Origin: an uncultured Isosphaeraceae bacterium | Lineage (GTDB): Bacteria; Planctomycetota; Planctomycetia; Isosphaerales; Isosphaeraceae | Assembly: GCA_945957605.1 (NCBI GenBank) | Contig: CAMFLR010000001.1 | Span: 744,001-808,000 of the forward strand | Length of the DNA stretch: 64,000 nt | Direction of reading: 5' to 3' | Shown here: positions 5,156-49,349 of the stretch, in pieces | How positions within the stretch are numbered: position 1 is the first letter of the stretch | Layout: every line of letters begins with the position of its first letter | The notes under the pieces: generated by a model | Told to the model about the DNA's origin: nothing | Seen by the model: the letters and a program-made list of their open reading frames with translations, nothing else | Database searches by the model: none | Program-made: the position numbers and the translations under genes

Positions 5156-6574
5156 ATGGGCGAGATCGTCTCGACCCTTGGCGGGCGAATCGTTGACTCT
5201 GGCCTGTCGGCGTGCTTGATCACGTTCGCCGTTGCCCTGGCCATGGTTGCGACTCGCCAGCCTTCCCGACGCCGGGCGCTGGCGCGCGCGGGCGTCCTCG
5301 GTGCGCTTCTGGCGATTCCGATCGTCTGCTTGCGCCCATTTGAGCCATTCCAGTTGCTCAACATGGGCTGGGCTGGCGTTCGGCCGGCGCTTATGTGGAT
5401 TGGTGACCGGCTCGGCACCGGCGATCCCACACGGTGGCTTCGCACCCTTGCGCCGGCGTCGCGCGGCATCGCCTATTTGCCAGCAATTCTGCTGGGCCTT
5501 TACCTCGCAGGCGTGCTATTTGGGCTGGCCCGGTTCGCCCTTGGCTGGTGGGGAGCGGGCTGGATTCAGATCAACAGCGCAGCCGCATCTTCTTTTGCGG
5601 TTGAGCTTTACAAGTCGTTGCCGTACACGGCGAATCGAACGCGTCCGCGGCTAAGAGTTTCGACACGTACGCGCCGGCCGGTGTTACTAGGTACGTTTAA
5701 CGAGACGATTCTGATCCCGCCCGACATGGATCGGCCTGAGGCGGCCACTGCGTTACGGTTGACGTTGCTGCACGAACTGGCGCATGCCGAAGCTTCAGAC
5801 CCATGGTTCGGCCTTGCGAGCGAACTCGCGTCAATTTTCTGGTTTCCTTTGCCGCCGCTCTGGTGGATTCAGCGGCAGATGAGGCTCGACCAGGAGTATC
5901 TGGCCGATCGCCAGGCCGCTGAAGGCTTTGGGGCGCCGAGCCGTTATGCCGCGTCGCTTGTTGACATCGCGGCGGGCACGAGTGCGAAGGGGGCGGGTGA
6001 AAACAGAGACTCCGGGAAAAGTCAGGCGACCTCAGCGTTATTCCCGCGCGTTCTGATGTTGATTCGCGCTCCATTCGTGCTCGAAGGGCAACCGCCAGCC
6101 TGGTGGCGACTGGCGCTCGCGGGCACAACCGTCGTTCTGCTAATCACCGCCACCGCCATCACACTCCGCTTCACTCGGGCCGCTCTCCCGCCCGCTCCGG
6201 AGCTACGCACGTTTTCAATGCCTTCTCTCATCATCGACGACTCACCGATGTCGGTGTCAGAAATTGTTTTGCCCGTGAAACTTCCGCCCGACTTCTCGTT
6301 GACGCTTTCGGTCCACGCGACTCATTCTGAACTCTCGCAACTTTCGATTCTAGGCGTTCCGCTCGCTCCCGCTTTGATTTTGGATACCAACCTGGTGCCT
6401 GAGGAACGCGTCTGGCAAAAGGTGAAGCTCGATCGCAAAGGCGGCCGTGTCACGCTCGCCGTCAATCAAGGAAAGCCCGCCGAGCACCCCGCCGACTGCC
6501 ACGCCAATGCATTGTCTGTACGGTCGAGTACAGGCCGGCGTATGACGTTTCGGACGATCCAATTGACCTGGTGA
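5156..6574 (+). CDS. M56 family (BlaR1-like) membrane zinc metallopeptidase with a C-terminal extracytoplasmic domain (pair 1)
   Basis: Integral-membrane protease of 472 residues, expected to relay an envelope signal by cleaving its partner repressor. Several hydrophobic segments lie in the first 140 residues, followed by the zinc motif HELAH (206-210) and the downstream Glu in LDQEYLADRQA (about 246). A further membrane span (about 318-337, ALAGTTVVLLITATAITL) is followed by roughly 130 residues outside the membrane. That tail (FSMPSLIIDDSP... to ...MTFRTIQLTW) is not a penicillin-binding sensor: no SxxK/SxN/KTG set is present. Its ending resembles the beta-sandwich of planctomycete DUF1080/LamG-like domains, which suggests sugar or wall binding, but this is tentative. 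Encoded just downstream of its BlaI-type partner. Confidence 0.85.
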   Translation: MGEIVSTLGGRIVDSGLSACLITFAVALAMVATRQPSRRRALARAGVLGALLAIPIVCLRPFEPFQLLNMGWAGVRPALMWIGDRLGTGDPTRWLRTLAPASRGIAYLPAILLGLYLAGVLFGLARFALGWWGAGWIQINSAAASSFAVELYKSLPYTANRTRPRLRVSTRTRRPVLLGTFNETILIPPDMDRPEAATALRLTLLHELAHAEASDPWFGLASELASIFWFPLPPLWWIQRQMRLDQEYLADRQAAEGFGAPSRYAASLVDIAAGTSAKGAGENRDSGKSQATSALFPRVLMLIRAPFVLEGQPPAWWRLALAGTTVVLLITATAITLRFTRAALPPAPELRTFSMPSLIIDDSPMSVSEIVLPVKLPPDFSLTLSVHATHSELSQLSILGVPLAPALILDTNLVPEERVWQKVKLDRKGGRVTLAVNQGKPAEHPADCHANALSVRSSTGRRMTFRTIQLTW

Positions 6575-6769
6575 TCCATCGCCGTCATTTTGGCAGACAG
6601 AGATTGTTCGCGGTTTGACGCAAAGGTGGATCGCTGCCATTTCGGCATAAAATCAGCGGTCGTTGAAACGATTTTGTATCGCCGATCTGTAAAATAGAAA
6701 CCGGTAAGTTGCTCAATCAAAAAGTGTTACGCCGATAATCTCCACTGCCAAATTGTGATTTCTTTCGAT

Positions 6770-6785
6770 TGGCACGGCTCGTGCA
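6770..6785 (+). promoter_or_regulatory. Sigma-54-type (-24/-12) promoter before the hsp20 pair
   Basis: The sequence TGGCACGGCTCGTGCA matches the RpoN consensus TGGCACG-N4-TTGCW at every fixed position except one T, with the GG and GC doublets exactly one helical turn apart (first G to G 12 bases). The predicted start near 6796 is about 40 bases upstream of the hsp20 ATG, an ideal distance. No enhancer-binding protein gene is in the window. Confidence 0.7.
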
Positions 6786-6836
6786 CTTAACACTGGCATG
6801 GTTCACAAAAGCGAGCCTCTCGAAAGGAGACCTTTG

Positions 6837-7283
6837 ATGAGTGGAGCGAATTGGCAGCGGCGCTGGGATCCGTTTCGTGATTTGCAGCGGGAAGTTGGTC
6901 GGTTGTTTGAGACGTTTGAACCTTTCACGCAGCCCTGGCGTCTGCCTCGGACGTTTCCGGCTGTGAATCTATATGACGCGGGTGAAGGATACGTGGTCAC
7001 CGCGCAGCTTCCGGGCGTTGGTCCGGACGAAGTCGACCTTTCGATCACTGGCGATACCCTCACGCTTCGTGGCGAAAGGAAGCGGTCGGAAGGACTGACT
7101 GACGAGCATTACCGACGACAAGAGCGGCAGCACGGTCGATGGTCGCGTTCGGTCACACTGCCCGATCGTATTGAGAGCCAGCAGGTTACGGCGTCATTTC
7201 TCAACGGAATCTTGACTGTCACGCTGCCGAAGTCGGCGTCCGCCAAGCCGCGTCAAATCAACGTCACAACTCAGACGGCCTGA
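6837..7283 (+). CDS. Hsp20/alpha-crystallin small heat-shock protein (first copy)
   Basis: ATP-independent holdase chaperone of 148 residues that keeps unfolding proteins soluble. The alpha-crystallin domain runs from about residue 40 (PAVNLYDAGEGYVVTAQLPGV) to 138, with the conserved NGILTVTLPK near its end. The short N-terminal arm begins WDPFRDLQREVGRLFE, usual for bacterial class A Hsp20. The ATG at 6837 is chosen because GAAAGGAGA lies directly in front; an ATG 39 bases upstream lacks one. A sigma-54-like promoter ends just upstream, and the second hsp20 gene follows 75 bases downstream, so the two are probably co-transcribed. Confidence 0.94.
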   Translation: MSGANWQRRWDPFRDLQREVGRLFETFEPFTQPWRLPRTFPAVNLYDAGEGYVVTAQLPGVGPDEVDLSITGDTLTLRGERKRSEGLTDEHYRRQERQHGRWSRSVTLPDRIESQQVTASFLNGILTVTLPKSASAKPRQINVTTQTA

Positions 7284-7358
7284 TTCCGCCAACTGAGCTG
7301 GCGTGTGAACACAACGAACACGAATGAGCGAAATCACGATATGAGGAGTTTTTTCACC

Positions 7359-7796
7359 ATGACCTCCGAACATCCGATTAGGGTGGCCGTTGGTCCCATG
7401 CCAGCGAATGGCACTTCTAACGTGGGACCTGCTCCGCAACAGCCGAGCGCGGCGAAACCCGTCCAACCGGCTCAAACGCCGTTTATCGATATTCACGAAG
7501 GCCCCGACGGACTGGTGCTCGAGGCTGATTTGCCGGGCGTGTCGCAAGATAATGTCAGCATTCATCTTGAGGACAATGTCCTGACACTTTCGGCCAAGGT
7601 CACTCATCCAGTGCCGCCCGAGGCCAAGCTGTTGCACGAGGAATATCGCCAGGGCGACTACCATCGGTCGTTCATCCTGAGCGATGAGGTCGATCGCGAG
7701 CGGATCTCTGCCGAGCTCAAGAACGGTGTCTTGCGGCTAAGCCTTCCCAAGGCGGAGCGTGCGAAGACGCGGAAGATCGAGATCAAGTCGTCGTAA
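7359..7796 (+). CDS. Hsp20/alpha-crystallin small heat-shock protein (second copy)
   Basis: A second small heat-shock chaperone, 145 residues, diverged from its neighbour. An N-terminal Pro/Gln/Ala-rich arm (about residues 10-40) replaces the helical arm of the first copy, then FIDIHEGPDGLVLEADLPGV opens the alpha-crystallin domain and KNGVLRLSLPK closes it. The start at 7359 follows GAGGAG with a 10-base spacer; longer in-frame starts at 7305 and 7341 lack one. With different N-terminal arms the two copies could form hetero-oligomers or serve different clients (inference). A strong terminator follows, closing the operon. Confidence 0.93.
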   Translation: MTSEHPIRVAVGPMPANGTSNVGPAPQQPSAAKPVQPAQTPFIDIHEGPDGLVLEADLPGVSQDNVSIHLEDNVLTLSAKVTHPVPPEAKLLHEEYRQGDYHRSFILSDEVDRERISAELKNGVLRLSLPKAERAKTRKIEIKSS

Positions 7797-42757: not shown

Positions 42758-44170
42758 GTGACACCGAAAGAGGTTCTGGCGAGAATCCGGCAGAGCGAGG
42801 CCACGACGGTCGACCTCAGGTTCATGGACTTCCCGGGCGTCTGGCAGCACTTCGCCATTCCGGCCGATGCGCTGACCGAAGAGACGTTTGAAGACGGCAT
42901 TGGCTTTGATGGGTCGAGCGTCGTCGGTTGGCGTGCGATCAACGAAGCCGACTTGCTCGTTGTTCCTCAACCTGAGACCGCGCTGATCGACCCGTTCACG
43001 TCAAGTCCCACCTTGACGATGATCTGCAATATCCAGGATCCGATCACCCAGCAGGATTACACGCGCGACCCGCGGAACATCGCCCGCAAAGCCGTCTCCT
43101 ATATGAAGAGCACGGGCTTGGCGGATAGTTGTCGGCTGGCTCCCGAGCTGGAATTCTTCGTATTCGACGACGTGCGCTTCGACCAGCGCGGGAATGAAGC
43201 GTTCTATCGCGTCGATTCGGTCGAAGGGGCCTGGAATCGCGGCCGGGTTGAAAATCCGAACCTGGGATACAAACCTGGATCGGGCCTGGGCTACTTCCCC
43301 TGCCCTCCGACCGACGGCCTGGCCGACCTGCGCACCGATATGGTCAAGCGCATGGGGGATTGCGGCCTGCATCCGATCGCCCATTTTCACGAAGCCGCGA
43401 CCGGCGGGCAGTGCGAGATCGATCTTGATCTTCAATCGCTCGTCGAAGCAGCCGACGGTGTGATGCTCGCGCGATACATCATCAGGAACGTCGCGAGGCT
43501 CGCACGTAAAACCGCAACTTTCATGCCCAAGCCGCTTTATGGCGATAACGGCTCTGGCTTGCACACCCACTTCACCTTGTGGAAAGGCGAGCAGAACCTG
43601 CTCGCTGGAAATGGCTACGCCGGACTCAGCGACCTGGGCATGTACGCAATCGGCGGGTTGCTCAAGCACGCGCCCGCGTTATGTGCATTTGCGAATCCCA
43701 CCACGAACAGCTACAAACGGCTCGTTCCCGGCTACGAGGCCCCGACGAAGCTCTCATACAGCCGGCGCAATCGCGCTGCTGTGATTCGTCTGCCAGTTTA
43801 TAGCCCAAGCCCGACGAGCCGGCGGATTGAGTTCCGCTGCCCTGACGCGGCGGCGAACCCGTACTTGCTGTTCTCCGCAATGTTGATGGCGGCGCTCGAC
43901 GGTATTCAGACGAAGGCGCGTCCCGGCGATCCGCTCGACAAGGACGTTTACGACCTTCAGCCCGACGAGTTGGAAAACGTGCCGGCTACTCCGCGTACGC
44001 TCGACGAATCGCTCGCCGCGCTTCGCGCCGATCATGAATTCCTCTTGCGTGGAGACGTTTTCACGCCGGACATTATTGATACGTGGATCTGGTACAAGAA
44101 GACCCACGAGGTCGAAGCAATTCGGACGCGGCCGCATCCTTACGAATTCCAGCTTTACTACGATATCTAA
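42758..44170 (+). CDS. glnA: Glutamine synthetase type I
   Basis: 470-residue GSI enzyme joining ammonia to glutamate. LRFMDFPGVWQHFAIP, FDGSSVVGWRAINEADL and LAPELEFFVFD are the GSI start and metal-site regions; NGSGLHTHFTLW and NRAAVIRLPVYS complete the active site. Tyr398 in LDKDVYDLQPDELENVP is at the conserved adenylylation position, so this is the adenylylatable GSI-beta type. The GTG at 42758 gives MTPKEVLARIRQ; the frame continues upstream to 42620 but those 46 codons are not GS-like. AAGGA and AAGG lie upstream of the GTG. It precedes the zinc-ribbon/pseudokinase gene by 60 bases. Confidence 0.96.
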   Translation: MTPKEVLARIRQSEATTVDLRFMDFPGVWQHFAIPADALTEETFEDGIGFDGSSVVGWRAINEADLLVVPQPETALIDPFTSSPTLTMICNIQDPITQQDYTRDPRNIARKAVSYMKSTGLADSCRLAPELEFFVFDDVRFDQRGNEAFYRVDSVEGAWNRGRVENPNLGYKPGSGLGYFPCPPTDGLADLRTDMVKRMGDCGLHPIAHFHEAATGGQCEIDLDLQSLVEAADGVMLARYIIRNVARLARKTATFMPKPLYGDNGSGLHTHFTLWKGEQNLLAGNGYAGLSDLGMYAIGGLLKHAPALCAFANPTTNSYKRLVPGYEAPTKLSYSRRNRAAVIRLPVYSPSPTSRRIEFRCPDAAANPYLLFSAMLMAALDGIQTKARPGDPLDKDVYDLQPDELENVPATPRTLDESLAALRADHEFLLRGDVFTPDIIDTWIWYKKTHEVEAIRTRPHPYEFQLYYDI

Positions 44171-44230: not shown

Positions 44231-46684
44231 GTGTCGCTGGCGTGTCCGTTTTGCGGCCAGGAGATCGTGGTCCACGCTCCCAAGCCGGGCCGGTTCCGCA
44301 TGAACTGTCCCGCTTGCCGCGAGCCATTCGCGCTCAAGGTAGGCGAAGGCCCCGAGTTCGCGATGTCGGCCGGCCCGCTTCCGGCGGCGAAAGCGGCTGA
44401 GCCAGTCGCGGTTGAGTCGGCGACAGAAACTGTGGCGTCGCAAGCTGGCTTTGACGTTTTGCTTGCGAGATTTCGTCAGGCGGTTGCCGAGCGCTGGCGG
44501 TGGTTTGTTCTCGCGCTAACGCATCGTAAGTCGGTGGTTGGTGGAGCGCTGATTCTCACCGAGTTCGGGCGTACGTCGCGCGGAACGGTTTCGCGAGGCC
44601 GGTTGCTGATGCTCGGGCGCGACGCAACCGTTCGTCTGATGCCGGCCGACTGGGGCGGCACCGATGTCAATTCAATGGCGCAATCGGAACGCATCGCGTA
44701 CGTCTCGACCGCGATTTCCCATCCTAACTTGCTTCGACGCCTCGACTTCAGCCACGACGCCAAGCGCCGTTTCGCGATCGAAGAGGCTGTCGAAGGCCCC
44801 ACGCTCGCGGCCTACGCCGAACGGCCAGAATTCCCCGGCGGCGACACCGCGCTGCCGCTGATTCTCCAGGCAGCGCGCGGCTTAAATGCCGCTCACGCGC
44901 AGGGATTGCCACACGGCGATCCAACAGGCGAAAACCTCTGGCTCGATCGCGGAGTTGTGAAGCTCGCCGGTCTTGGCCTGGCGGGAACCGAACTCGCGGG
45001 GATGGAATCCGCCGATGCGTCGGGCCGCTACGTCCAGCAAGACATTCAGAAGCTAGGCCAGACGCTCAGCCTGCTTGCTAGACGCGGCAAGGGCGACGTA
45101 AGCCTGCCCTCTGGTCTTGCCGGAGCTGTCGCCTCGAAGCTTCAGGCCGGTGGTACGCCCGACGGTTATCGCGATCTCAATGAAGCAATTCGCGCGATCG
45201 AAACGATCTTGGGTTTGATGCCAGGCGGCGGATTCGTCGCTAGCCAGGCCGAGACTGATCGTATCGCAGAGGCTGCCGACGCCTACCAGCAGACGCCGCT
45301 TGGCGGCTTGCGTGTCAAACTCGCTGCCGGATTCGTGGCGATCTGCGTGCTCTTTGCACTGATTTTCGCCAAGGCTGGTGCGATTGCGATGATGTCCGCC
45401 GTGCTGGGACTGTTGCTCGCGACGTCGAGCTACTATTCGCTCATTCGCGCCGGTCTTGAGTCTCGGTCCGGTCTGTTCGGCAAGGTGCGCGAATTGATGC
45501 TCAATGGCCGTCGCGCGGATTGGCTCTTCTTGATCGCCGCAAAAGTGATTGCGATCTTCGCGCTCTATTTTCTTGGCTGGCTGATCGACGCGATCGTGCT
45601 GGCAATCATCGCGCTGGGATTCGCGATTGGCTTCATCATCGCGTTCGACTTGCCAATCACCTCCTACCGCGAAGTACCGCTCAACGACGCCCGGCGTTTG
45701 CTCGACCAGCTTCGCGCACGTGGCGTCTCTGAGTACGCAATTCGCGACTTCGTTCGCGAACACGCGGGCTCGTACTGGGAAGACTTGTACGAAGCCCTTT
45801 TCGGCCTTAACGACACCCGCCTCGCTCGTGAATTCGCGAGCGGTACCCAGCGCACGCGGTTCCGATTCGACGCCTGGCGTTTCCCGATTATTGACTGGAT
45901 CGATCGCCGGCTTCAAATGCGTCGCGAAGGGCTCGCACGCGACCGCTTCGCGCGCGTCGAGGAAGTCGCTGGCGTCGCGCGCAAGATCAACGATATGACG
46001 GCCCGACGACGGAGCAAACGAATCGCGGACGCTTTGCTCGTCGTGGCTCGCGAAGTGCGGAACGTGTCATTGGCCGCACATCGACCGGCCGGTGACGCAA
46101 TCCACGTCACGCCTCGCCCCATTCCTAGCTTGATCAAGGAAGCGGTCGACACACCCGAAAAGCTTCTCACCGACGCTGAGGCCGATACGCCCGAAGCGCG
46201 CCAAAATCCCATCGTGCCGATCTTGCTCGCATGCGTCGGCTCGCGCGTCCGTTTCTTGCTGGGAACCGCGCTGATTGCCGGCTTCTTGCTCTGGGCCGAT
46301 CAGGTGCAGGTGATCTCGGCGGAGCAGATCAAAAACCAGGCGACGACCGCGATTCAGGATCAAAGCACCGACGCGCTCAAGAATATCAATATCGACACGA
46401 GTCGCGTGCACGATACATCGGAGCCGCTGAAATTGCCGGGAGTTCCGCCAAGTTGGACGGCTCTCATCGCCGGGTATGGAGTCGGCGTCGCGGGATTGAT
46501 CATGATCCTGTCGTCGTTCTCGGCAAGTGCGAAGATCATTCCGTTCGCCTTCGTAGGCGCTGCGATTGCGTGGTTCGCGCCGCGGTTAGGTTTGCCGGCA
46601 ATCGGTCCACTCGGACCCGCGGCGCTCGCGTCGGCCGTTGGCGGGGCGATTTTCGTTGTAGGATTGTTTGTCGCCAGACGTTGA
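44231..46684 (+). CDS. Zinc-ribbon, pseudokinase, multispan membrane protein
   Basis: 817 residues. C5-x2-C8 and C26-x2-C29 form an N-terminal zinc ribbon. Residues about 105-320 follow a Ser/Thr kinase fold: LTEFGRTSRGTVSRGRLLMLGRD (glycine-loop zone), TVRLMPADW (where VAIK should be, with Arg for Lys), HPNLLRRLDF, the PLILQAARGLNAAHAQGLPHGDPTGEN catalytic-loop counterpart (H228-N235), then VKLAGLGLAG in place of DFG. Loss of the Lys and of DFG argues against catalysis. Four spans follow at about 360-480, a long cytosolic helical section, and three or four more spans to the end. AGGAG 8 bases before the GTG supports the start. I do not recognise a named family. Confidence 0.75.
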   Translation: MSLACPFCGQEIVVHAPKPGRFRMNCPACREPFALKVGEGPEFAMSAGPLPAAKAAEPVAVESATETVASQAGFDVLLARFRQAVAERWRWFVLALTHRKSVVGGALILTEFGRTSRGTVSRGRLLMLGRDATVRLMPADWGGTDVNSMAQSERIAYVSTAISHPNLLRRLDFSHDAKRRFAIEEAVEGPTLAAYAERPEFPGGDTALPLILQAARGLNAAHAQGLPHGDPTGENLWLDRGVVKLAGLGLAGTELAGMESADASGRYVQQDIQKLGQTLSLLARRGKGDVSLPSGLAGAVASKLQAGGTPDGYRDLNEAIRAIETILGLMPGGGFVASQAETDRIAEAADAYQQTPLGGLRVKLAAGFVAICVLFALIFAKAGAIAMMSAVLGLLLATSSYYSLIRAGLESRSGLFGKVRELMLNGRRADWLFLIAAKVIAIFALYFLGWLIDAIVLAIIALGFAIGFIIAFDLPITSYREVPLNDARRLLDQLRARGVSEYAIRDFVREHAGSYWEDLYEALFGLNDTRLAREFASGTQRTRFRFDAWRFPIIDWIDRRLQMRREGLARDRFARVEEVAGVARKINDMTARRRSKRIADALLVVAREVRNVSLAAHRPAGDAIHVTPRPIPSLIKEAVDTPEKLLTDAEADTPEARQNPIVPILLACVGSRVRFLLGTALIAGFLLWADQVQVISAEQIKNQATTAIQDQSTDALKNINIDTSRVHDTSEPLKLPGVPPSWTALIAGYGVGVAGLIMILSSFSASAKIIPFAFVGAAIAWFAPRLGLPAIGPLGPAALASAVGGAIFVVGLFVARR

Positions 46685-46902: not shown

Positions 46903-49086
46903 TCACTTCTGCGGCTTGCTCTTGATCCATTCATGGATCAATTTGACGGCCTTCTCGTCCACAACAGATGTGGCGAGTGGCGGCATTTTGCCCTGTCCAC
47001 GCGTCGAAACGCGATGCAGCAAAACCGAGCTCTCAGGCTTTCCTGGGGCAACGAGCTTCGGGTTGGGCAGGCCGAAGTCGTGGTGCTGCGGCGGATGATC
47101 GATCAGGTTCAAGTCTTTGTCGGTCAGGTGGAACGAAAGCTGAAAACGGGCATTGCCCCCACCCGCTTCGACGTGGCAGATCGAACAATTCGTGTGCAAA
47201 TAAGAGCGGGCACGCGCTTCGATGGGATGATCGTCGTCGTGCGGGTCGGGCAACCGAGGATATGCCTCAGGAGCCTTGTCGAGCTTCTTCTCGAACAGGC
47301 CAATGTGGTCGTACGCACGCAACTGGTTGTCGATCGTGCCGCCGTAGTCGTAGTTGCGATTGAGTTGACCGGTTTTCATTCCGAGCGCAAAGCCCGCGGC
47401 ACGCGAGTGGCAAACCATGCACTCGGCGCGGCTGGGAAAATGCCACGTCTGCGACCGCATAGTCTTCTGCGTCAAGGGATCGACACACGCGTACGTCTTA
47501 TCCATCCCGTTCTTGTCGACGAGCATCGCATCCGATTGATCGTCGTTCCAAACGTACGAATACCCCTCCCACTCCTTATCGCGCAGCACGAGCAGACGCG
47601 TCTCGACGCGAGTCTCGCACTGCGATCGGCCGCCAGCGGGAAGGCAGAACGTCTTGAGCAGAATCGCCCCTTCGGGCATCCCCCACGTCGCATCGAGGTT
47701 GGGGCTGAATTCGATCTTCGAATTCCCTGGCAAGGCGAAAGCCCGCTCCTTGCGAGCACCATCAGACCAGAGCGGCGAGTTCACGGCGAAGGGAATGACA
47801 CCAGGTGCAAATTCATGATCGCGCACCGAGGCGTATAGTCCCGTCTCGCTCAGACGCCGCGGGAATTTATGGGTTGCCACGGCCGATTTCGACTGCGGTT
47901 CGAGCCGATAGAGTGCACCTGTCGCGTAGTCGAGCGTCCATACATCGCCACTTGCGTCGTTGCAAAGGCCCAGCATCGCCACTGACGAATCGGCGATCTC
48001 GTGATGATCGGTCACTGCGTTGTTTTCGTACCGCAACGACCACATGCGGCCAGTCGCGTAATCTCCGTAGATATATGCTCCGCGCAGTTCCGGGAAGCGA
48101 TCGCCAACATAGACGAAGCCGCCGGTAATTGACCGCGCCTCGACGTGTTGGTGCGAAACGATCGGCGGTTTGATCGGCGTCGGCCCGCGCTTGGGACGTT
48201 TGGGGAGGAAGTCGGCGGGACCTTCCTTCACGCTCCAGCCGTGATTCGACCCGCGCTCGACGATCTCGATCATCTCCCAGAGATCCTGGCCAATATCACC
48301 CATCCAGAGCCGGCCGTTGGAAGCGTCGAAGCAGAATCGCCAGGGATTGCGGAAGCCATAGGCCCAAATTTCAGGGCGAGCGCCTGCGAGGTTGATGAAT
48401 GGATTGTCGGGCGGAATCGCATACATCTTCCCGGGCGCGGGGTGATCGACGTCGATGCGGATCATCGCCGAGCAGAGGTCGGAAAGATCCTGGCCGGTTT
48501 CCTTGGGGTCGGAATCGGTCGTGCTATCGCCGGCCGAGATGTAGAGCATGCCGTCCTTGGGACCGAAGGCAAGCTCGCCGCCATCGTGACCGGCCGATTC
48601 CCAGGAGATGATTTCAACTTCCGACTTCGGCTCACACTTGCGTGGCGACTCATTCCCGACATGAAAACGCGAGATGATGTTTTTGGGCTTCGCATCATTC
48701 GACGTATGCCCAAAAACGTAGACGAGGCCGTTTTCCGCAAATCGCGGATGGAAGGTCAGGCCATAAGCGTCGCGGGGGAGTTCAAGGAATAGGTCGGGCT
48801 TGCGCTTCAAATCGTTGGGGTAAATTGCCCAGATTTTGCCGTGATATTCGATGACGAGCAGTCGCTGGCCACCCGGTTCGGCAATCACGTGCACTGGATA
48901 TGAGAACGACTTCTCGGGCAAAACCTGCACAAGCCTGAACGGTGGAGGAGGAGTGGGCGCACCGATGACCTTGTTCGTGGTGAACGGGACGCGGGTTTCC
49001 AGGCCAAAGGGCTGTGAATCGGCGGCGCAGGCAATGCTCGAACCGAGCGAGAGGATAACCAGGATGATGAGGCGTACGCCTATCAT
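46903..49086 (-). CDS. Beta-propeller sugar dehydrogenase-like protein fused to diheme cytochrome c
   Basis: 727 residues with a signal peptide (LIILVILSLGSSIACA). Residues about 50-430 form a PQQ-type glucose/sorbosone dehydrogenase propeller (LTFHPRFAENGLVYVFG, GGELAFGPKDGMLYISAGD, EIWAYGFRNPWRFCFD, GDIGQDLWEMIEIVERGSNHGW). The C-terminal part has two heme-binding CxxCH sites, CMVCH and CSICH, with a distal Met candidate in KMPPLATS. It would oxidise a sugar or alcohol in the periplasm and pass electrons to its own hemes. The start at 49086 is chosen for the signal peptide; the frame is open further up. It faces away from the Tat hydrolase gene. Confidence 0.9.
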   Translation of the reverse strand: MIGVRLIILVILSLGSSIACAADSQPFGLETRVPFTTNKVIGAPTPPPPFRLVQVLPEKSFSYPVHVIAEPGGQRLLVIEYHGKIWAIYPNDLKRKPDLFLELPRDAYGLTFHPRFAENGLVYVFGHTSNDAKPKNIISRFHVGNESPRKCEPKSEVEIISWESAGHDGGELAFGPKDGMLYISAGDSTTDSDPKETGQDLSDLCSAMIRIDVDHPAPGKMYAIPPDNPFINLAGARPEIWAYGFRNPWRFCFDASNGRLWMGDIGQDLWEMIEIVERGSNHGWSVKEGPADFLPKRPKRGPTPIKPPIVSHQHVEARSITGGFVYVGDRFPELRGAYIYGDYATGRMWSLRYENNAVTDHHEIADSSVAMLGLCNDASGDVWTLDYATGALYRLEPQSKSAVATHKFPRRLSETGLYASVRDHEFAPGVIPFAVNSPLWSDGARKERAFALPGNSKIEFSPNLDATWGMPEGAILLKTFCLPAGGRSQCETRVETRLLVLRDKEWEGYSYVWNDDQSDAMLVDKNGMDKTYACVDPLTQKTMRSQTWHFPSRAECMVCHSRAAGFALGMKTGQLNRNYDYGGTIDNQLRAYDHIGLFEKKLDKAPEAYPRLPDPHDDDHPIEARARSYLHTNCSICHVEAGGGNARFQLSFHLTDKDLNLIDHPPQHHDFGLPNPKLVAPGKPESSVLLHRVSTRGQGKMPPLATSVVDEKAVKLIHEWIKSKPQK

Positions 49087-49349
49087 GGCGAAACCCCGAG
49101 GGGGGAGAATAGGTGGGAACCGGCGTCGCTCGTTCGAGGCGTCTGGCTGTAATTCCATTGTTGTCGGACAACCATCGAATTCGCAAGAGTTTGCGGCTGT
49201 GATTCGCCAGGAGATCGGCATTCTGAGCAAGACGGTTGAGGGCAATCGATCCGAAAAATGGGGTCGAGGATTCTTTTCCTTTTAGCTGCGCGTTCGTTTA
49301 TATTACCGCGTCCCCGAGTGACCGAGACTTCTGTCCAGGGAGAAGCACC

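Follow-up and report, generated by a model that had tools for sequence, protein, structure and literature searches.

The window, a stretch of 64,000 nucleotides from an uncultured Isosphaeraceae bacterium, carries at 44231-46684 on the plus strand a gene for an 817-residue membrane pseudokinase (locus L057). Reading of the frame and its orthologues divides the protein into an N-terminal zinc ribbon, a pseudokinase domain and a membrane half. The start codon is GTG, with an AGGAG-like ribosome-binding sequence just 5' of it, and the frame is not a chance one, because orthologues are present in many genomes. Upstream on the same strand lies glnA, encoding glutamine synthetase (42758-44170), whose likely start is the GTG aligning with the 470-residue frame of the congeneric genome (G001). 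As an earlier note made from the letters of the window had stated, the pseudokinase gene begins 60 bases after the end of glnA at 44170. We found no terminator-like site on the plus strand of this gap, and co-transcription of the two genes is possible. The downstream neighbour on the minus strand (46903-49245) reads as a glucose/sorbosone-type dehydrogenase with a cytochrome c part; it adjoins the gene in G001 as well, so synteny is conserved within the genus. The source genome (G000; 8.8 Mb in 33 contigs) gave 116 Pkinase matches, a count of matches and not of proteins or genes, as some proteins match in two pieces.

Domain architecture of the 817-residue protein

The N-terminal C4 zinc ribbon read by the earlier note is formed by Cys 5, 8, 26 and 29 in a C-x2-C...C-x2-C pattern within residues 1-50 (44243-44317, plus strand, as are all features of the gene given below). 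It was typed as MJ0042/Zn_ribbon_4 via the relative L060, which both models match below cut-off. Sequence matches in Pfam, NCBIfam and the PDB, together with the structural model, place the pseudokinase domain at about residues 103-328 (44537-45214). Pfam Pkinase (PF00069) matched it with an E-value of 4.6e-6 and 26.7 bits, below the gathering cut-off of 31.7 bits, and the PknB-type model of NCBIfam with 1.9e-8, far below that model's cut-off. The best PDB matches by sequence were Staphylococcus aureus PknB/Stk1 (2.9e-6) and StkP.

Structure prediction, which the earlier note had proposed as a check, returned a kinase fold. The full-length AlphaFold2 model, built on a 59-row alignment, had a mean pLDDT of 87.4 and a pTM of 0.80. 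Its kinase part aligned in VIA-align to BRAF with a Z-score of 19.5 (214 residues, rmsd 3.6) and to PknB with 19.1 (220 residues, rmsd 3.5); scores to BRAF, PknB, PknA, PknI and others lay between 18 and 19.5, in a model that is pulled towards the kinase fold because its alignment consists mostly of intact kinases. The predicted fold agrees with the proposed descent of this membrane pseudokinase from a Ser/Thr kinase.

The residues for catalysis are largely replaced, and the absence of the VAIK lysine and of the DFG motif had been recognized correctly. Arg135 (44633-44635) occupies the site of the beta3 (VAIK) Lys, at which all 65 non-pseudokinase rows with that column have Lys, and Ile155 the alphaC Glu site. 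The degenerate catalytic loop HGDPTGEN (residues 228-235; 44912-44935) stands where intact relatives have HRD[IV]KP[DEAG]N; as the earlier note quoted it, it keeps the catalytic-loop Asp and Asn. In the alignment of 74 loci, GLG replaces DFG/DLG, the DFG Asp site being Gly, and a shortened activation segment follows (44969-45040). The distance from the DFG Asp site to the alphaF Asp is 24 residues in L057, 40-43 in L059 and L060, and 24-43 in all eight pseudokinases described below, as opposed to 54-82 in the other rows. Taking loss of the beta3 Lys, the HRD Asp or the DFG Asp as the mark of a pseudokinase, the protein bears two such changes, Lys to Arg and DFG Asp to Gly; the HRD Asp is kept in L057 and is Glu in G001 (HGEPTPEH). 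Kinase activity has presumably been lost.

The membrane half probably comprises eight spans, with the N-terminus, the C-terminus and the central section in the cytosol, in line with the seven or eight spans and long cytosolic helical section read earlier. Spans 1-4 (residues 356-473; 45296-45649) are placed from the model and hydropathy, with membrane-type helices at 356-381, 385-409, 428-447 and the start of 451-496. Spans 5-8 (residues 671-816; 46241-46678) are placed from the model and loop charges, with helices at 671-691, 750-761, 769-786 and 796-816; the loop joining spans 5 and 6, about 58 residues long, is predicted to be exported. A plain hydropathy scan had five strong peaks only. 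The Lys/Arg counts of the loops (0, 5, 0, 35, 4, 1, 0 and 2) fit eight spans with both ends inside. Between the two sets of spans, the cytosolic section of the model reaches to about residue 660 and holds a conserved core (residues 495-616; 45713-46078) with the pattern R..G..E....G..W.......FG...AR.

This core is where conservation concentrates. Among 61 membrane halves, 17 positions are conserved in at least 90%; 13 of them fall within residues 495-591 and none within spans 1-4, a distribution that speaks against the channel suggested earlier. The output of the protein most likely resides in this core. Modelled alone on 61 rows, the membrane half reached a pLDDT of 90.6 and a pTM of 0.74. 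Pfam holds no family for it, giving only scattered weak matches in one or two of the 61 members, and its sequence profile found nothing above noise in the PDB (best E-value 0.22). A Foldseek search of the PDB gave no match at E ≤0.001 (best 0.79), with TM-scores up to 0.16 by query length for MATE, MurJ and V-ATPase rows, and in VIA-align a designed helical protein scored best, with a Z-score of 6.7. The tool itself rates such values as noise for helical bundles, and they neither assign nor exclude a fold.

The family in 74 loci

We searched 59 genomes, the source genome and related ones, with the whole protein and collected long matches over the membrane half. A profile was then made from 18 membrane halves, L057's own among them; L057 matches it with an E-value of 8.4e-164 as one of its 18 rows. 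Within the order, 23 of 45 genomes matched and 22 did not; in the class, 66 of 248 drawn genomes matched. A shallow search of the phylum matched six of 392 genomes, a figure not usable as a prevalence because only four candidates were scored per genome. The 74 loci analysed are the listed matches minus short or weak ones, namely second pieces of the same gene, G011, G090, one G470 piece and, in G446, G455 and G562, fragments roughly 80-120 residues long. The membrane half is present at every one of the 74 loci; contig ends truncate some, and G001 has it in two frames. The N-terminal C4 pattern occurs in 62 of the 74 rows, and the 12 misses include some truncated rows.

The catalytic set, consisting of the beta3 Lys, alphaC Glu, catalytic Asp and Asn, and the DFG-site Asp as DLG, is complete in 64 of 74 loci; the family is therefore not defined by being inactive. 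The other ten rows are eight pseudokinases, L065 with NLG, and L105, which is cut by a contig end. Orthologues with an intact Lys/DFG set, named beforehand as a finding that would count against the pseudokinase reading, are thus the rule in the family, but not in the pseudokinase subclade. On this sequence evidence, the 817-residue protein belongs to an inactivated branch of an otherwise active-looking kinase family. In the intact members (62 rows), kinase and membrane identities correlate over pairs (r 0.88), which fits one inherited unit, although shared ancestry alone would give the same.

All eight pseudokinases (L057, L058, L059, L060, L069, L070, L071 and L076) belong to Isosphaeraceae. 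Their genomes have one family copy each, that of G001 in two pieces, and seven of the eight genes are open over their full length. The Lys, Glu, catalytic Asp and Asn are present in all 65 non-pseudokinase rows with those columns. In the pseudokinases the Lys is gone from all eight (Arg in two, Ala in two, Trp in four), while the Glu is kept in three, the Asp in four, the Asn in one and the DFG Asp in two. Conservation of the Arg, Asp and Asn, put forward as a check, therefore fails for the group: the Arg is shared with the congener and goes no further. Since the congener has HGEPTPEH, the Asp and Asn of HGDPTGEN appear no longer to be held by selection, and because both residues drift among the eight, the proposed gating by nucleotide is unsupported. 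By contrast, all eight retain residues that hold the fold together, namely the HRD His, the DFG Gly and the Asp and Gly of alphaF, which are constant in the other rows too. The four members with Trp at the Lys site (L069, L070, L071 and L076) come from one other genus and match no C4 ribbon pattern.

A scan of contigs of GTDB species with a six-row alignment gave 55 loci, several of them on the same contigs as the 74-locus set; they include Singulisphaera, Limnoglobus, Zavarzinella, Gemmata, Phycisphaerales, Sumerlaeota and two Myxococcota. The full catalytic set is present in 50 of 56 frames (L170 is in two pieces), among them an apparently intact member in Singulisphaera acidiphila DSM 18658. 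The six remaining frames are L133 and L135 (the contigs of L059 and L060), L159, which is cut by a contig end, the second piece of L170, L151 and L185. In L151 (Phycisphaerales; 5557-7440) the zinc ribbon is followed by the membrane half with no kinase domain, and no kinase was found elsewhere in that locus. In L185 (4186-7317), Arg replaces the Lys, Ser the Asn and SFA the DFG motif; its isolate, RI_26, has an intact member, L169, on another contig. The Myxococcota members L182 and L184 stop just past the core without spans 5-8, which suggests that a kinase, spans 1-4 and the core make up the minimal unit.

Origins of the catalytic loss and selection

In a 73-row tree the pseudokinases need two changes. 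The best tree of a more careful 30-row analysis also needs two, 4% of 200 bootstrap trees need one, and the deep Isosphaeraceae forks are open. A single Isosphaeraceae origin was not rejected (AU p 0.459, with 0.81 log-likelihood units between the trees). When L185 was added, one clade of all pseudokinases was rejected (p 0.025), in a quick tree with long branches. Catalysis was thus lost one to three times in Isosphaeraceae and probably once more elsewhere.

We compared Nei-Gojobori dN/dS of the ribbon-plus-kinase half with that of the membrane half. The values were 0.14 and 0.21 for L069-L071, 0.27 and 0.41 for L069-L070, 0.35 and 0.45 for L069-L076, and 0.49 and 0.41 for L059-L060; seven intact pairs gave 0.04-0.29 and 0.06-0.25. 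Between L057 and G001, dN/dS was 0.28 in the pseudokinase, 0.46 in spans 1-4 and 0.22 in the rest, and 0.118 in the cytosolic core (100 codons). All these figures are rough because pairs are few and several dS values lie near or above 1. The ratio of kinase to membrane similarity towards four intact Isosphaeraceae members was 0.85-1.14 in the eight pseudokinases and 1.40-2.01 in nine non-pseudokinase rows. Taken together, the substitution data indicate that the pseudokinase domain is under purifying selection, less strictly than in intact kinases, relaxed and not free, and that the cytosolic core is the most constrained part of the protein.

The copy in G001 (L058/L002) is split by an insert of about 226 bases (L058:3440-3665), with both halves staying open. 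No second copy of the insert was found in G001 or G000; a recent insertion and an assembly fault could both account for it. With its copy split, the gene may be dispensable in G001.

Comparison with known pseudokinases

By sequence, PknB/Stk1-type kinases (PF00069) are closest to the kinase part, and they are also among the closest by fold. Kinases of this type have one span with PASTA repeats, whereas the 817-residue protein has about eight spans and has lost catalytic residues and the activation segment. MviN carries a MurJ-type flippase; Pfam matched no such domain in the whole 817-residue protein up to an E-value of 1, and Foldseek reached MurJ with an E-value of 3.1 and TM-scores of 0.15-0.16, so that no flippase was recognized.

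Membrane pseudokinases with activation-loop deletions and scaffold roles are covered in a 2025 review of bacterial pseudokinases (PMC12599244), and several of its classes invite comparison. MviN and the ActPs3 group are likewise membrane proteins with degraded motifs and an activation-loop deletion, and the 817-residue protein combines these traits with a C-terminal membrane region, as ActPs3 proteins do. Among the residues under family-specific constraint in ActPs3 are bulky aromatics in the ATP pocket and a dimer interface; four relatives of L057 have Trp at the Lys site, but L057 itself does not. ActPs3 proteins are described there mainly from actinobacteria; a difference is that the sisters of the present protein keep the full catalytic set. 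GLW pseudokinases, as presented in the same text, are membrane-associated and have Leu or Trp in place of the ATP-binding Lys, like the Trp of L069, L070, L071 and L076, but in them GLW replaces HRD, whereas the present proteins keep the HRD His, and the Lys site of L057 is Arg. EssB/YukC of type VII secretion is likewise a membrane pseudokinase with a shortened activation loop and a scaffold role, though monotopic and tied to a secretion system by that account, whereas our protein has about eight spans; by reading only, no type VII component was seen among the surrounding frames. No word in the text of the review begins with 'Planctomyc'.

Planctomycetota have very many membrane kinases, some predicted with up to 18 spans, according to a study of kinases judged functional (PMC11032199), in whose main text the words 'pseudokinase', 'inactive' and 'zinc' are absent. 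Many insoluble Ser/Thr kinases are reported in the Tuwongella proteome (PMC8567305). A search by title and start of abstract, mostly outside subscription literature, yielded no paper on the ribbon-kinase-eight-span architecture; we do not claim its absence from print.

Probable function of the pseudokinase and its core

Starting from the observed anatomy, residue losses, purifying selection and relatives with complete catalytic sets, we consider that the 817-residue protein probably descends from an active polytopic Ser/Thr kinase of receptor type, is catalytically dead and now serves as a non-catalytic scaffold or regulator of the core. The family plan appears to be a zinc ribbon and a PknB-like kinase followed by two sets of four spans, with the conserved cytosolic helical core between them. 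The lineage of L057 has lost the beta3 Lys, the alphaC Glu, the DFG Asp and the activation segment, with the core of the fold and the cytosolic core retained. Most likely the pseudokinase fold works without catalysis, as a module for docking or allostery next to the cytosolic core, to which it would pass on a membrane state or the binding of a partner. Of the functions put forward earlier, a binding scaffold is the best class, although the scaffold role, and any signal conveyed, are what we infer.

Although pseudokinases of bacterial membranes are known, they have been little studied, and active-looking close sisters of the same architecture are rare. In this family, related genomes hold, mostly in single copy, versions of one receptor-type kinase that are intact, half-degraded or dead, a natural before-and-after of catalytic loss in which a switch from enzyme to scaffold is testable by domain swaps. 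The strongly conserved cytosolic core, which has no Pfam family, is the thing these kinases may control. We tentatively entertain a bolder reading, in which the eight-span half with its core is the real business of the family, the kinase fold a replaceable controller and the core a new kind of membrane effector. It is founded on catalysis having been lost at least twice (in Isosphaeraceae and in L185) and on the absence of the kinase from one Phycisphaerales lineage, with the core persisting; if it holds, the core could work under a live or a dead kinase, or without any.

The scaffold explanation has a narrower version, in which the pseudokinase half would be the substrate and docking tail of one of the many active Ser/Thr kinases of the organism, its phosphorylation recruiting a partner to the membrane. 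The Mycobacterium tuberculosis MviN pseudokinase offers a precedent, as it does not bind ATP, serves PknB as a substrate and recruits FhaA (PMC12599244), and the many Pkinase matches of the source genome are in keeping with such a target; we regard this version as rather unlikely. Alternatively, the kinase half could be a relic on its way out, with only the membrane half and core mattering. The interrupted gene of G001, the kinase-less L151 and the lost relative conservation of the kinase half favour decay. Against it, kinase-half dN/dS lies below that of the membrane half (for L057, below that of spans 1-4) in four of five pseudokinase pairs, L059-L060 being the exception, and seven of the eight genes are open throughout; in the L057-G001 pair the 0.28 is lower than the 0.46 of spans 1-4, but the core and the rest are lower still. 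Such decay seems to us improbable.

Very little likelihood attaches to unconventional catalysis or nucleotide sensing, by which Arg135, Asp230 and Asn235 would bind ATP and gate the membrane part. The kinase-like SelO and SidJ, which lack standard residues, do transfer AMP or glutamate (PMC12599244), and the congener, too, has Arg at the Lys site. However, in the congener Glu and His stand where L057 has Asp and Asn, both proteins have Gly for the DFG Asp, the four pseudokinases of the other genus have Trp at the Lys site, and none of the 17 conserved positions lies in spans 1-4. A defence role, considered because of the PADLOC hits PD-T4-6 and mad6, was rejected, as these are general kinase-profile matches and far stronger in an intact relative.

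Gene neighbourhood

Conservation of the glnA linkage, suggested earlier as a check, did not extend beyond the genus: glnA lies directly upstream on the same strand in two of 74 loci, those of G000 and G001. Counting any glnA neighbour raises this to three, the third being divergent and in another bacterial family (L107). That locus, from G538, taken as Limnoglobus roseus, has a glnA homologue (63% identical) starting divergently about 400 bases away. It is therefore hardly credible that the protein is a regulator of nitrogen status working with glutamine synthetase, despite the same-strand glnA directly upstream in both genomes of the genus and the terminator-free gap of L057, since elsewhere in the family the neighbour is trpS or a Gfo/Idh-type dehydrogenase, or none is shared.

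The gene trpS is upstream in 18 of 74 loci, all from one family (taken as Gemmataceae), a Gfo/Idh-type dehydrogenase lies at or just before the gene in eight, and argD is near it in 14. Product names other than glnA come from reading the sequences, and the counts rest on named genes searched for again, as the automatic clusters also held antisense frames; absences are weak at some loci because contigs are short (e.g. L059, L060, L104 and L105). A conserved operon was rejected, the clusters being lineage-specific, with no shared operon to point to a pathway. The 1281-residue frame of L077, considered as a fusion with the Gfo/Idh-type gene, contains no such Pfam match and was set aside. Finally, murB occurs within about 5 kb in 11 of 74 loci (L061, L063, L064, L068, L072-L075, L091, L101 and L112), in three arrangements and two bacterial families, reflecting either chance or an old gene cluster.
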